A DNA stretch of 59,985 nucleotides from Planctomycetota bacterium (lineage in GTDB: Bacteria > Planctomycetota > Planctomycetia > Gemmatales > Gemmataceae), in assembly GCA_016873095.1 (NCBI GenBank), contig VGYC01000019.1:1-59985 (forward strand), given 5' to 3'. Of the stretch, positions 29,045 through 35,305 are shown piece after piece. The first letter of the stretch is position 1; each line of letters starts with the position of its first letter. The notes below the pieces were generated by a model, which saw only the letters and a program-made list of their open reading frames with translations, ran no database searches and was not told where the DNA came from. The position numbers were made by a program, and so were the translations under genes.

Positions 29045-29548
29045 ATGAACGGTCATAAGTTGTCGTCCGCATTGCTCATCCTGGTCGGCATCGTTTTCAG
29101 TGTGTCGATCGCTGGATGCACCAAGGGTCCGGCAAAAGGCGTGGGCATGGATGGGAAAGTCACGTACCAAGGCAAGCCCGTGCCAGGCGGCCGTATCACG
29201 TTCCATCCGAAGGATGGTGGGCCAGCTTACACCGCCGAGATTCAATACGACGGCACATTTGCTGCCAAGGATGTGCCGGCTCTTGGCGCGGTGATCGTCA
29301 CTGTCGACAACTCTTTCCTCAAGGGCGCCGAGGGCCCCATCGGTGATCCGACCGTGGAGGCCAAGGCAAAGGGGGAGAACATCAAGGTCGATCCCAAGAT
29401 GCTTCAGCAAAAGGAAAACGTGAAAGTGGACACAAGCAAGGCCAGGAAGTACATCGAACTCCCGGCCAAGTACGCAAAGAAAGAGTCGTCCGACCTGACC
29501 TGGGATATCAAGGCCGGCAATGCGCCCACGACAATTGAACTGAAATAG
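29045..29548 (+). CDS. Small lipoprotein accompanying DUF1559
   Basis: 167-aa lipoprotein. The signal peptide ends in the lipobox SIAGC (cysteine near residue 25). The mature part starts with 'GKVTYQGKPVPGGRITFHP', a carboxypeptidase-regulatory-like (transthyretin-fold) beta-sandwich common in planctomycete lipoproteins encoded after DUF1559. The C-terminal half is rich in Lys and Glu. GAGGGGG lies about 5 nt before the ATG. It probably sits in the periplasmic face of a membrane; its partner or function is unknown. Confidence 0.9.
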   Translation: MNGHKLSSALLILVGIVFSVSIAGCTKGPAKGVGMDGKVTYQGKPVPGGRITFHPKDGGPAYTAEIQYDGTFAAKDVPALGAVIVTVDNSFLKGAEGPIGDPTVEAKAKGENIKVDPKMLQQKENVKVDTSKARKYIELPAKYAKKESSDLTWDIKAGNAPTTIELK

Positions 29549-29699: not shown

Positions 29700-31028
29700 A
29701 TGATGTTTCCATCGCGGTCAAGCCTCGTTCGTTGCGCAATTCGGCAGCCGATCGTATTTCTGCGGCGCTGGCCCAAGACGGGGGTGGTCGTTTGCGCCAT
29801 CACCCTCGGGCTGGTGGCTGTCCTCTCTGTATTCGTCTGGACAAGGTACCACTATCGCGCCGCCCTGTGGTGCCTGCATAACGACCTGCTCAAGGACGCT
29901 CGCCGTCATCTCGAGCTGAGCCTGCAGGTGTGGCCACACGATCTGGAAACCAATCTCCTGCTGGCACGCGTCTGTCGCATGGGCGGAGACTACATTCAGG
30001 CCGAGCGGCAACTCGACGAGTGCAAGCGCATTGGCGGCATGTCCGATAGGATCCAGCTGGAATGGGTGCTGATGAAGGCTCAGTCCGGCGAGATCCTGCG
30101 CTGGGAGCCTGGACTGCGCCGCTGCCTCGAAGAGAAGCATCCCGATTCCGTGTGGATCCTGCAGACGCTGGCGCACCGTCACCTCTCGGACCTGCGCTTC
30201 ATGGCGGCCCTCGGCTATCTCGACGAATGGCTCAAGCATGACCCCGACAATCTCCGGGCCCTGAGCTGGCGCGGCTGGGTGCGCGAAAAGATGGAGAACG
30301 TGGAGGGAGCTTATGATGATGCCGTTCGCATCCTTCAGATTGCCCCCGACCGCTGGGAGATTCGCCTGCGTTTGGTGGAATACTTGCTCGGCGGCCGAAA
30401 GGTGCCCGAGGCGGAGGAGCACCTGGAGATCCTGAGACGGGACCATGCGGACGACACCCGGGTGATGCATGCCTGGGGCCAGTACCAGTATCACAACGGC
30501 AATCTGGACGAGGCTCGCCAGACATTCGACGCGCTGCTGCAAAAGGCCCCTGATGACGCCAAGGCTCTTTTCGAGCGTGGCCAGATCGAGATTCAGGAAG
30601 GCAGGCTGGACACGGCGGAGAAGTTCCTGCGCCGTTCCATCGAAACGGACCCGGGCAACGTCGATGCCCAGTACGCGCTCTTTTTCACCTTGCAGAACAA
30701 CCCCAAGCGCAAGGGATCTGCCAAGCAAGCCCTGTCGGAATACAAGACCGTTCAGGAGGCAGCCAAGAAGATCCGTCAGCTTCTGAAAGACCTTGATCGC
30801 ATGCCTGGCAACACCAATATCATGGTCGAGACCGGGAAGGTCTTCCTGTTACACGGCAATGCTAAGCTGGGGGCGCAGTTCCTCAATCGTGCCCTCAATG
30901 TGAATCCCTATCATAAAGAAGGGCACGAGTTGCTGATCGATTACTACGAGAAGACGGGCGACAAGAAAAAGGCAGATATCCATCGCAAGGCGCTCGTCGA
31001 TCTGTTTCCGAGTCCGCCGGTTCCCTGA
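29700..31028 (+). CDS. Membrane-anchored TPR protein
   Basis: 442-aa protein with an N-terminal membrane helix (about 28-48), then a chain of tetratricopeptide-like helical repeats from about residue 55 to the end. Clear units include 'GNLDEARQTFDALLQKAPDD' and 'GRLDTAEKFLRRSIETDPGN'. It is a protein-protein interaction scaffold on the periplasmic side. Two adjacent ATGs (29700, 29703) have no strong binding site. It lies 24 nt before the first FG-GAP gene, and TPR plus FG-GAP/ASPIC proteins are often clustered, which suggests they act together. Confidence 0.85.
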   Translation: MMFPSRSSLVRCAIRQPIVFLRRWPKTGVVVCAITLGLVAVLSVFVWTRYHYRAALWCLHNDLLKDARRHLELSLQVWPHDLETNLLLARVCRMGGDYIQAERQLDECKRIGGMSDRIQLEWVLMKAQSGEILRWEPGLRRCLEEKHPDSVWILQTLAHRHLSDLRFMAALGYLDEWLKHDPDNLRALSWRGWVREKMENVEGAYDDAVRILQIAPDRWEIRLRLVEYLLGGRKVPEAEEHLEILRRDHADDTRVMHAWGQYQYHNGNLDEARQTFDALLQKAPDDAKALFERGQIEIQEGRLDTAEKFLRRSIETDPGNVDAQYALFFTLQNNPKRKGSAKQALSEYKTVQEAAKKIRQLLKDLDRMPGNTNIMVETGKVFLLHGNAKLGAQFLNRALNVNPYHKEGHELLIDYYEKTGDKKKADIHRKALVDLFPSPPVP

Positions 31029-31052: not shown

Positions 31053-33431
31053 ATGTTTCGTGGCGTGCTGAGCTTTGGTTTACTGCTGCTAATCGGCCTG
31101 GGCGCCTGGCTCTGGTTCGGCGGCGCGCCGCGTGAGAACGGCGACGAGCGCGAAGCGGTCATGTCCGCCGAGGAACGGCAGTACATCTGGGATGTCGAGC
31201 ATCATGTCCTCGTCCTGAGCAAGTTCTGGTTCCGTGATCTGGCGGAAGCTCTGAAGAACATGGACCGCGCCAGGCTGCTGAGCCTCCTGGCCCCTGACTT
31301 CAAGGGGAGCAAACCCAGCAATCCGCTCGAGGAACGCCGGAATCTTGGCTTCGGCAAGATCCTTCGCCAGAAAGACGACTCATCGCCTCCAGCAGCGCTT
31401 TCCCGGGAGGCCTTCGTCGATCAGCTATTGGCATACCGCAAGCTGTTCTCGGCGCCGCCCCAGGTCAAGCTGAATCCGAAGACCGTGGCGCCGCGGCAAC
31501 GCAATGATCTCGAGAGTGTCTGGCAAGGGGCGGGCGTCCTGCGTCTGTGGGGCGAGATCCAGCCCGGACAGCCGGGCGAGGTCGTCGTTCAAGTGCAGTT
31601 TTCGCTGCCGCGCCCGCAGAACAACCATGAAGCCGGCTGGCTGCAGGCATGCGGCATCACGCAGGTGCAGCAGGCCAGCGCCACGCGCTTTCTCCTGCAC
31701 GACGTCACGCGTGAACGCGGCATCGATCCCACGCTGTTTCATGACAACTGGGACAAGAAAACGACCGTTCCCTCGACTGGCGGCGTCTATCTGTGCGACT
31801 TCGATCGCGACGGCTGGATGGATGTCCTGATCACGGACCTGGATCGGATTGCGCTTTATCGTGGGCTGCCGGGCGGCAAGTTTCAGGACGTCACAGCGGA
31901 TCTTGGCTTGCTCGTCTATCCCTCGCGCTCGGCGGCGTTCACGCTTGCCGCCTTTGTGGACATCGACGGCGATGGCTGGGAGGATCTGGTCGTTGCCGGC
32001 CACATTTATCGCAATGAGGCCGGCAAGCGCTTCGTCGCCGCCAAGACCAATTTGCGGATCCCCATGGACGCGGTCGGCCTCGCCCTGGCTGATTACGATG
32101 GCGACGGCCTCGTGGACATTTACATCACCCGCCCGGGCAAGACCAAGAAGGGTTCCTGGCTGGACGGCAAGAGTGCGGATCCACGCGGCAACCAGCTATG
32201 GCGCAACCTCGGCAACTGGAAGTTCGAGGATGTGACCGTGGCCAGCAACACCTCGGGCGGTCAGCGTTCCGTCTTCAGCGCCGTCTGGCTGGACATCAAC
32301 AACGATGGGCGACCAGACCTGTATGTCCCCAACGAATTCGGCAACGGCGTGTTGCTGCTGAACAACGGCAAGGGCGCCTTTACCGAGAAGACCCTGGTCC
32401 CCGGCCCCGGTGATTTCGGCACGATGGGCATTACCTGCGGAGACATCGACAATAACGGCCAGATCGACATCTATCTCGGCAACATGTATTCCAAGACCGG
32501 CAGCCGCATCATTGGCAACGTCAAGCCGGGGACTTATCCAGAAGACCTGATGGCGAAGATGCGCCGTTTCGTATCCGGCAGTCAGCTGTATGTGAACCAG
32601 GGCGACTTGAAGTTCACGCCGGTCGCACAGAAATGGCAGATGAACGACGTCGGCTGGGCCTACGGGCCGGCGCTGCTCGACCTGGACAACGACGGCTTTC
32701 TCGACCTGTTCGCGACCTCGGGGTTCATCAGCCTCGATCGCGACAAGCCCGACGGCTGAAGCTGCTTGTGGCAGGCTGTAGTTGCACAGCCATTCAATCG
32801 CGGCGCCAGGCTCTGCGCTCCCGGAAAGGTGGATCCGACCATCGACGAGTTCTGGGTGGATAATCCATGGGACATCGTCGGGGCCGGCTTCAACCTGAGC
32901 AATCATGAACGCCAGCGCTTCTACATGAACCTTGCCGGCACCGGCTTCGTGGACCTCAGCTATCTTTCCGGGGCCGACGCCGAGGGCGATGGCCGCTCGG
33001 TCGTGGGCGCCGACTTTCGCAACAACGGGAGCATCGATCTGATCGTTCGCAAGGTCGGCGGCGGCGCGGTGACGCTCTATGAAAACCGGCTGCTTGACGC
33101 GGGGCACAAGCGCCACTACCTGCACGTTTCCCTGCGTGGGCGCACCAGCAATCGCCTTGGCATCGGCGCACGTCTCACTGCCTACGCGAAGGGCCGTCAG
33201 ATCGTGCGCGAACTCTACCCGCTCAACAGTTACATGTCGCAGATGCCCAACCAGGTGCATTTCGGACTGGCCGACGCCGACTCCGTGGATCGCTTGACCA
33301 TCCGCTGGCCCTCCGGTCAGGTGCAGGAATTGACAAACATCCGTGCGGACAGGCATATCGTCGTCGAGGAAGGAAAAGAGGGCAACGCTGCGGTGGAGAC
33401 CGTGATTCCAGGGAAAACCATCGCCCCCTAG
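31053..33431 (+). CDS. FG-GAP/ASPIC (CRTAC1-like) protein with in-frame TGA, candidate selenoprotein
   Basis: Single gene read through an in-frame TGA at 32757-32759, giving 792 residues with residue 569 as proposed selenocysteine. Residues 5-22 form a membrane or signal helix. A non-repeat domain (about 30-215) is followed by FG-GAP/VCBS repeats with calcium-binding motifs (DFDRDGWMD, DIDGDGWED, DYDGDGLVD, DINNDGRPD, DLDNDGFLD). After the TGA come 'SCLWQAVVAQPF', a further FG-GAP part and an ASPIC/UnbV domain ('RLGIGARLTAY', 'IRWPSGQVQEL'). Without readthrough the C-terminal third has no start or binding site of its own. The residue gives a U-S-C motif. A nonsense mutation is the alternative, in which case the parts are 31053-32759 and an untranslated 3' remnant. 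Confidence 0.75.
32774..32791 (+). promoter_or_regulatory. Candidate bacterial SECIS hairpin
   Basis: Stem GGCTGT/ACAGCC (6 bp, perfect) with loop AGTTGC. The loop begins 20 nt after the TGA and has G at its second position. As I recall the general bacterial SECIS model, it calls for a small apical loop with a G in the first two positions about 16-37 nt after the UGA, which this meets. Lower-stem pairing is poor. Confidence 0.5.
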
Positions 33432-33460: not shown

Positions 33461-35305
33461 GTGCTCAAGAGTAGCTGGTTACTTGCCCTGGGGACCGTGG
33501 TGCTTGCGGCACTCGGGGCCTATTTCCTGATACGCCAGCCCGACCATTCAGCGCCGCCCCGGGGCGGCAAGCAGCCGACTGGCAACTTCCGCGACATGGC
33601 GGCGGAATGTGGCCTCGATTTCCGCATGGCCTTTCTTCCCAGCGAGCAGGGCGAAAACTTCAAGATCAACCTCTATGACCACGGCTGCGGAGTCGCGGTC
33701 GCCGACTTTGACGGCGATGGCTACGAGGACATCTACTTTGTCAATCAACTCGGTCCCAATGCCCTGTACAGAAACCGGGGCGATGGCACCTTCGTCAATG
33801 TCTCGGAAAACGCCGGCGTGGCGGTTGGCGATCGCATCTGCGTCGGCGCCGCCTTTGGCGACATCGATAACGATGGGTATCCGGATCTCTTCGTGACTTC
33901 GATCCGCGGCGGCAACATCCTGTTTCGCAATCTGGGCAACGGCAAGTTCAAGGACGTGACCAAGGAAGCCGGTCTCACCTGGATCGGGCACTCGCAAACG
34001 GCCGCGTTTTTCGATTACGACAAGGATGGTTTTCTCGATCTCATGCTGACCAACACCGCCAACTGGACGTTTCCCGATCGTGAGCCGGCGGCGTTCTACT
34101 ACCCGGGAGTGAAGAATCTCTGGGGACTGGCCGCCAGCCCCAAGGAATACAACGTCCTGTATCGCAATAACGGCGATGGCACATTCACCAATGTCACTGA
34201 CAAGGCCGGCGTCAAGGGCCAGGGCTGGGGCGGCGACGTCGCCATCTTCGACTACGACGAGGACGGCAACCTCGACATGCTGATCACGAACATGTTCGGC
34301 CGCAGCCAGCTCTGGCGAAACAATGGCAACGGCACGTTTAGCGACGTCACGCGTGCCGTCCTGGGCCGCACGTCCTTTGGCGCCATCGGCTCCAAGGCGT
34401 TCGACTTCAACAACGATGGCAAGCTGGATCTGATCATCGTGGACATGCACTCCGACATGTGGACTGGCTTCGTGCTGGGCATGACGCCGCCGGAGCTGCA
34501 GCTTTCGGAGAAGAAGAAATTTGCCAAGCTGAGCGGGCCGATGGAACTGGCCTCCTTCGAGGGGCTAGCCGGCGAGAAGCTGGAACAGAAGCTCGTGGAC
34601 GTGTTCCAGGTGCGCTACGACGAGGTGCTGTTTGGCAACACCCTCTTCAAGAATGTGGGCGGTGGCAAGTTCACCGAAATCTCGGAACAGGCCGGAGTGG
34701 AGACGTTCTGGCCATGGGGCGTGGCCACCGGAGACTTCAACAACGACGGCTTCGAGGACGTGTTCTTGCCATCGGGAATGGGTTACCCATTTTTCTACTG
34801 GGGAAACCGCCTGCTCATGAACAACGGCAATGAGACTTGTTCGGAACGTTCTCGCCAGGACGGCATCGAGCCGCCGCGACATGGCATCTATCTCGCCGAG
34901 AAGATCGGCGGCGAGAGTGCGTCACGCAGCTCGCGCTGCGCCGCGACCGCGGACTTCCGCAAGATCGGCCGGCTGGATATCGTCACCAACAACTTCAACG
35001 ACAGTCCTTATTTCTTTCAGAACCATTTTCCGAGAAAGAACTTCATCACCTTTCAGCTTCAGGGAACGAAGAGCAATCGCGATGCCGTCGGAGCGCTGGT
35101 CACGGCGCACCTCGGCAAGGAGGTGTTGGTCCGGCAGGTTCCGGCAGCGGGCGGTTACCTGTCTCAGTCATCCAAGAACCTTCATTTCGGACTTGGCAAT
35201 CGCGAGCGCGTTGACCGCGTGGAGATTCGCTGGCCGAGCGGCAAGCATCAGGAAATCCTCAACCCCGCCATCAATCAATGGCATCGCGTTGTGGAACCCA
35301 GGTGA
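33461..35305 (+). CDS. FG-GAP/ASPIC (CRTAC1-like) protein
   Basis: 614-aa secreted paralogue of the upstream gene. It has an N-terminal hydrophobic signal or anchor (about 3-22), multiple FG-GAP/VCBS repeats with calcium-binding loops (DFDGDGYED, DIDNDGYPD, DYDKDGFLD, DYDEDGNLD, DFNNDGKLD, DFNNDGFED), and a C-terminal ASPIC/UnbV domain ending 'IRWPSGKHQEI'. The start is a GTG preceded by GAGAG, 29 nt after the previous stop. Residues about 458-468 ('ETCSERSRQDG') look shifted: the +1 frame there reads like the family consensus, so two compensating indels are possible. It likely binds surface ligands with the TPR protein. Confidence 0.88.
   Translation: MLKSSWLLALGTVVLAALGAYFLIRQPDHSAPPRGGKQPTGNFRDMAAECGLDFRMAFLPSEQGENFKINLYDHGCGVAVADFDGDGYEDIYFVNQLGPNALYRNRGDGTFVNVSENAGVAVGDRICVGAAFGDIDNDGYPDLFVTSIRGGNILFRNLGNGKFKDVTKEAGLTWIGHSQTAAFFDYDKDGFLDLMLTNTANWTFPDREPAAFYYPGVKNLWGLAASPKEYNVLYRNNGDGTFTNVTDKAGVKGQGWGGDVAIFDYDEDGNLDMLITNMFGRSQLWRNNGNGTFSDVTRAVLGRTSFGAIGSKAFDFNNDGKLDLIIVDMHSDMWTGFVLGMTPPELQLSEKKKFAKLSGPMELASFEGLAGEKLEQKLVDVFQVRYDEVLFGNTLFKNVGGGKFTEISEQAGVETFWPWGVATGDFNNDGFEDVFLPSGMGYPFFYWGNRLLMNNGNETCSERSRQDGIEPPRHGIYLAEKIGGESASRSSRCAATADFRKIGRLDIVTNNFNDSPYFFQNHFPRKNFITFQLQGTKSNRDAVGALVTAHLGKEVLVRQVPAAGGYLSQSSKNLHFGLGNRERVDRVEIRWPSGKHQEILNPAINQWHRVVEPR

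Follow-up and report, generated by a model that had tools for sequence, protein, structure and literature searches.

Selenoproteins usually, though not obligatorily, have homologues with cysteine in place of selenocysteine (Sec). The bacterial SECIS (bSECIS) type of element is a stem-loop located just 3' of the UGA codon, whose small apical loop contains a G (PMC1088965). Selenoproteins as such are already known in planctomycetes (PMC4807772), and among the 119 prokaryotic selenoprotein families and subfamilies inventoried in 2026 (PMC13188914), none is of the FG-GAP, ASPIC or propeller type. A selenoprotein family of the FG-GAP/ASPIC type is mentioned neither in deep-Sep (PMC12013277) nor in PMC9312934. 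Text searches of the literature retrieved no description of one, although an earlier mention is possible, for example in subscription papers.

The window considered here is the whole analysed stretch of planctomycete DNA, 59,985 nucleotides long. It contains a gene of the FG-GAP/ASPIC type with an in-frame TGA, a candidate Sec codon. The gene, its elements and its neighbours are the following.

29045..29548, plus strand: 167-aa protein heading the gene cassette, no Pfam match; an equally long ORF precedes the paralogue
29700..31028, plus strand: TPR-repeat gene upstream in this cassette, with TGA as its normal stop; similar order by the paralogue
31053..33431, plus strand: full gene of the putative Sec protein, 792 aa via TGA readthrough, comprising an N-terminal membrane anchor or signal, FG-GAP beta-propeller, Sec loop and UnbV_ASPIC (frame, Pfam, structure model)
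31740..32733 (approximate), plus strand: FG-GAP (integrin/CRTAC1-type) beta-propeller repeats (Pfam PF13517, PF01839; best PDB fold match 9etn)
32757..32759, plus strand: in-frame TGA, residue 569, proposed selenocysteine (aligned TGA in 51/51 subset homologues)
32763..32765, plus strand: TGC, encoding Cys at U+2, the putative resolving residue of U-x-C (Cys in 56/57 of the subfamily)
32774..32791, plus strand: SECIS-like hairpin GGCUGU-AGUUGC-ACAGCC, +18 to +35 from the T of TGA (pairing, covariation, codon entropy)
32780-32785, plus strand: loop of this hairpin, with GU
33159..33356, plus strand: UnbV_ASPIC domain, residues 703-768, 3' of the TGA (Pfam)
33461..35305, plus strand: downstream FG-GAP/UnbV_ASPIC gene, without in-frame stop; FG-GAP similarity also follows the paralogue

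The frame opens with ATG at 31053, immediately preceded by AGGA, and runs through the TGA at 32757-32759, its sole interruption, to TAG at 33429-33431. The same coordinates had been given in the initial annotation. The 792-aa readthrough product contains FG-GAP_3 in five stretches (Pfam, E 7.7e-42) followed by UnbV_ASPIC (E 2.2e-21), as in the CRTAC1/ASPIC-UnbV family; both matches are above the gathering scores. NCBIfam 20.0 has no model for this protein. The UnbV_ASPIC domain, whose presence downstream of the TGA had been correctly recognised, would thus be made only when the TGA is decoded. The claim that this part could not be expressed alone holds in so far as no Shine-Dalgarno sequence is visible, but the TTG at 32766 is formally a start codon (ORF 32766-33431). 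The residues around the TGA are DKPDG-U-S-C-L-W-Q-A-V-V-A-Q-P, with U-S-C at positions 569-571. No thioredoxin fold with CxxC was detected by Pfam at the C-terminus.

In the structure model, whose mean pLDDT is 75.6, the window protein has an N-terminal helix suited to a membrane anchor or signal, and a Sec loop of low pLDDT. Its best PDB fold match is murine CRTAC1 (9etn; E 3.8e-23, TM 0.69 by target), which is also the sole PDB sequence match. The N-terminus, together with what is known of the family, suggests that the protein is membrane-anchored or exported. A 386-aa open frame on the minus strand (32196-33356) spans the TGA; it probably arises as a by-product of GC-rich codon usage rather than being a gene.

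The genome contains a paralogue (L010) with 62% amino acid identity and a TGA at the matching place. The gene order is alike at both loci: the 167-aa protein, the TPR protein, the Sec protein and a region of FG-GAP similarity. The DNA around the TGA is nearly identical in the two genes although the remainder has diverged: codons are identical at 13 of 14 identical residues near the TGA, compared to 223 of 444 elsewhere (p 0.001). Both the TPR gene and the downstream FG-GAP gene of the window terminate at TGA as an ordinary stop, and thus the genetic code is not altered as a whole. Genome-wide recoding of UGA is ruled out by these neighbours and by the fact that nearly all family members have one in-frame TGA.

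Close relatives were found in 39 of the 397 genomes of the class, and every match covering the site has an in-frame TGA. In an aligned subset from many families of the class, the TGA occupies one common column in all 51 loci, in two of them once the pairwise alignment had been corrected by one residue. Across the phylum, where 392 genomes were searched with a profile of this region, 105 genomes had matches. Among the 150 matches listed, 135 contain TGA at the site (134 with one, and one with three) and 15 do not; neither TAA nor TAG was observed there in any of the 150. There are up to seven family copies per genome. One member was found in an Acidobacteriota contig (L076, Pyrinomonadaceae). 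A further Sec member comes from a contig labelled Dehalococcoidia UBA7891 (L075, DLRJ01000056.1); it branches within the planctomycete clade and may reflect a misbinned contig or horizontal transfer. The locus with three in-frame TGA codons (L227, G416:C78:22600-27400; positions U, U+21 and U+25) is otherwise open through a TlpA-like domain, and represents either a protein with several Sec residues or a decaying gene.

The region 3' of the TGA contains a candidate bSECIS element: the hairpin directly follows the codon and has a G in its small loop, as in the described type. Two forms exist. In the branch of the window gene, the hairpin has a 6-bp stem and a 6-nt loop at +18 to +35, with the pattern GGCUGU-cGUguC-ACAGCC. 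The sister branch has a 6-bp stem and the loop GGUCG at +15 to +31, with the pattern GCGrCA-GGUCG-UGUCGC. The dinucleotide GU is present in the loop of nearly all. All six pairs are formed in 77 of 84 UGA genes and in 0 of 15 non-UGA paralogues, and a six-pair hairpin is observed at 0.9% of other in-frame positions within the same genes. Compensating both-sided changes occur in two pairs of the window-type hairpin, where 97.5% of cells are paired, and in three pairs of the sister type, paired in 100% of its 23 rows; since these rows were preselected for at least five of six pairs, the latter figure is partly due to selection, which does not apply to the compensating changes. Codon entropy was compared in 112 conserved amino acid columns, and its four lowest values are at +6, +7, +8 and +10 after U, all of them in the hairpin. 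The non-UGA paralogues retain the protein motif but not the hairpin, and thus the constraint acts on RNA. The folding energy is unremarkable (z -1.16 for the window gene, mean z -1.15 for UGA genes). As it is weak evidence for a SECIS element, the test was rebuilt on pairing in a fixed register, covariation and codon entropy.

Some loci deviate from these forms. In two genomes of one genus (G250 and G318), the UGA is retained and the hairpin is eroded to three or four of the six pairs (L051 and L055). No selB was found in these incomplete assemblies. A second copy in G250 (L155) has a normal hairpin. One locus (L230, G654:C52:46200-54200) is a tandem pair of Sec members with divergent hairpins that lie outside both fixed registers and fold locally.

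The machinery of Sec incorporation is largely present. Of the four genes named in the initial annotation, selB and selA are adjacent on contig 81 of the window genome and selD is on contig 117, all above the curated cut-offs. However, tRNA-Sec, the product of selC, was not found in this assembly (548 contigs, 95.5% complete) by Rfam, by patterns or by a custom covariance model; the searches matched ordinary tRNAs (Ser, Leu, Gly) or nothing. Of ten gene-bearing genomes tested, seven have a tRNA-SeC with anticodon UCA according to ARAGORN. At a threshold of E <= 1e-60, selB occurs in 33 of the 39 gene-bearing genomes compared to 196 of 397 overall (p 2e-6, relatedness ignored). Six gene-bearing genomes lack a selB match; completeness does not exceed 83% in four of them, and tRNA-Sec is present in G351, one of the remaining two. 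The SelD of the window genome (L039, G000:C117) is fused to an NADH-dehydrogenase-like flavoprotein and makes up the C-terminal portion of the combined protein.

Alignment of homologues had been expected to show either U/TGA or Cys at this position. The TGA was found throughout the subset, but Cys never occurs in the Sec column of the 15 non-UGA paralogues, and no Cys-containing homologue was seen; the residues are N (four), E and A (three each), R and Q (two each) and D (one). A tree of 99 members requires three changes of the UGA label, and well-supported branches make these necessary. As the UGA members flank the deepest split under midpoint rooting, the UGA is best read as ancestral and lost about three times.

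The U-S-C triplet had been interpreted as a redox spacing. Indeed, 56 of the 57 window-branch members have Cys at U+2, but none of the 27 sister-branch members does; these have U-S-F or similar, and this rules out U-x-C as a universal motif of the family. Instead, the sister-branch proteins have a C-terminal thioredoxin-like domain (AhpC-TSA/Redoxin in Pfam) matching the PDB sequences of TlpA (1jfu) and ResA (4nmu) and, below the cut-off, the TlpA/ResA models of NCBIfam. CxxC is present in 26 of 26 UGA members with this domain and in 0 of 9 non-UGA members with it (p 1.4e-8, relatedness ignored); in the other six non-UGA members the domain is undetectable. Each of the approximately three losses of UGA on the tree is accompanied by the loss of CxxC or of the entire domain. 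This joint loss is the strongest sign of a redox centre, and counts against readthrough with another amino acid. It is likely that Sec is redox-active, in U-x-C in the window branch and with the TlpA-type CxxC in the sister branch. We infer that in the latter Sec contacts CxxC; pLDDT in the AlphaFold models is low for the Sec loop and for the greater part of the thioredoxin domain, and proximity of Sec and CxxC is not discernible.

Several other explanations can be considered. A TGA in a lone contig could be an error, and a nonsense mutation or sequencing error, with a pseudogene or misread gene producing only the 568-aa propeller, would not require selC. However, the frame 3' of the TGA is intact and conserved, and the occurrence of the TGA in the diverged paralogue, in all 51 subset homologues and in most relatives in the phylum is far beyond chance and no local mutation. 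This conservation rules out the explanation, which we consider practically without probability. An unrelated sense residue at this position had been named as a sign of such a defect. It is formally present in 15 of the 150 listed matches, but these form about three derived lineages that have also lost both the hairpin and CxxC, and thus they favour Sec over a nonsense mutation. Readthrough of a conserved UGA with another amino acid, such as Trp, Arg or Gln from a near-cognate tRNA, with the hairpin as a general stimulator, would agree with the replacements observed (E, D, N, Q, A or R, not Cys) and with the missing tRNA-Sec of the window genome. It is very improbable nevertheless: a leaky stop would accept TAG or TAA, the hairpin is at the bSECIS position and has a GU loop, selB co-occurs with the family and most of the gene-bearing genomes tested for tRNA-Sec contain it, and the joint loss of UGA and the redox CxxC is sensible only if the residue is redox.

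The two remaining alternatives accept Sec and differ as to its role. The stop is near the boundary between the propeller and ASPIC, and thus both the short and the full product are plausible folded units. Selenium supply might then decide whether the 568-aa propeller or the full-length form including ASPIC (and TlpA) is made, so that Sec would be chiefly regulatory. This is improbable, as the co-conserved U-x-C and CxxC indicate chemistry at the residue itself. A role as a ligand of a metal or cofactor, and not as a dithiol-type redox centre, is somewhat less improbable but still unlikely. FG-GAP loops bind metal ions, and the absence of Cys replacements may be expected if selenium itself is required. 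On the other hand, the joint loss with the thioredoxin-like CxxC and the nearby Cys in the other branch suggest thiol reduction.

The conservation of UGA, the compensated hairpin, the Sec machinery, the co-occurrence with selB and the joint loss with the redox CxxC support the original proposal that the TGA at 32757 is read as Sec. On this comparative evidence Sec is very probably inserted there, and with similarly high confidence the product is predicted to be a selenoprotein of a new family. At the UGA, the hairpin about 15 nt further 3' would recruit SelB with Sec-tRNA(Sec), and Sec would be inserted in place of termination. The resulting protein, anchored in the membrane or exported, would combine an FG-GAP beta-propeller with an ASPIC domain and have Sec in the loop joining the last propeller blade to ASPIC. 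There it would most likely be redox-active in an extracytoplasmic setting. In the window branch, Sec may cycle by forming a selenenyl-sulphide with the Cys at U+2. The reductant of Sec in the sister branch may be the protein's own C-terminal thioredoxin domain of the TlpA/ResA-like type. We lean towards the broader view that this is an ancient class of extracytoplasmic beta-propeller selenoenzymes spanning Planctomycetota and Acidobacteriota, in which Sec is not exchangeable for Cys and one branch has its own thioredoxin-like reductase in the chain.

The family is large and apparently undescribed, and is spread across Planctomycetota and at least one further phylum. It is a sizeable addition to the selenoproteins, on a scaffold with none listed, and the expected selenoproteome of Planctomycetota grows accordingly. 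Many FG-GAP/ASPIC genes of this phylum are probably annotated too short or as pseudogenes. As no Cys form was seen, searches for Cys/UGA pairs would overlook the family. The joint loss of Sec and CxxC points to a redox partner that is directly testable, and offers an initial clue to the role of bacterial CRTAC1-like proteins.

With described bacterial selenoproteins, such as formate dehydrogenase H with its SelB/bSECIS system, the family shares the in-frame UGA, the immediate 3' hairpin with a G in the apical loop, selA, selB and selD in the genome, and redox-type Cys partners. It differs in having no Cys homologue, the replacements being E, D, N, Q, A or R, and in its beta-propeller scaffold, missing from the 119 families and subfamilies of PMC13188914. 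The FG-GAP propeller with UnbV_ASPIC is common to CRTAC1/ASPIC-UnbV proteins (9etn and bacterial CRTAC1-like proteins). Unlike these, the window family has a Sec loop, PDG-U-x-C-x-W-x-A-V-V-x-Q-P, inserted between the propeller and ASPIC, as well as an N-terminal extension; the sister branch adds the TlpA domain and TPRs. The C-terminal TlpA/ResA-like domain with CxxC links the sister branch to the TlpA/ResA/DsbE oxidoreductases, including the UGC-containing TlpA selenoproteins, whereas the window gene has no such domain. In contrast to the TlpA selenoproteins, the Sec of the sister branch is about 250-300 residues upstream, in the propeller part and outside the thioredoxin fold.
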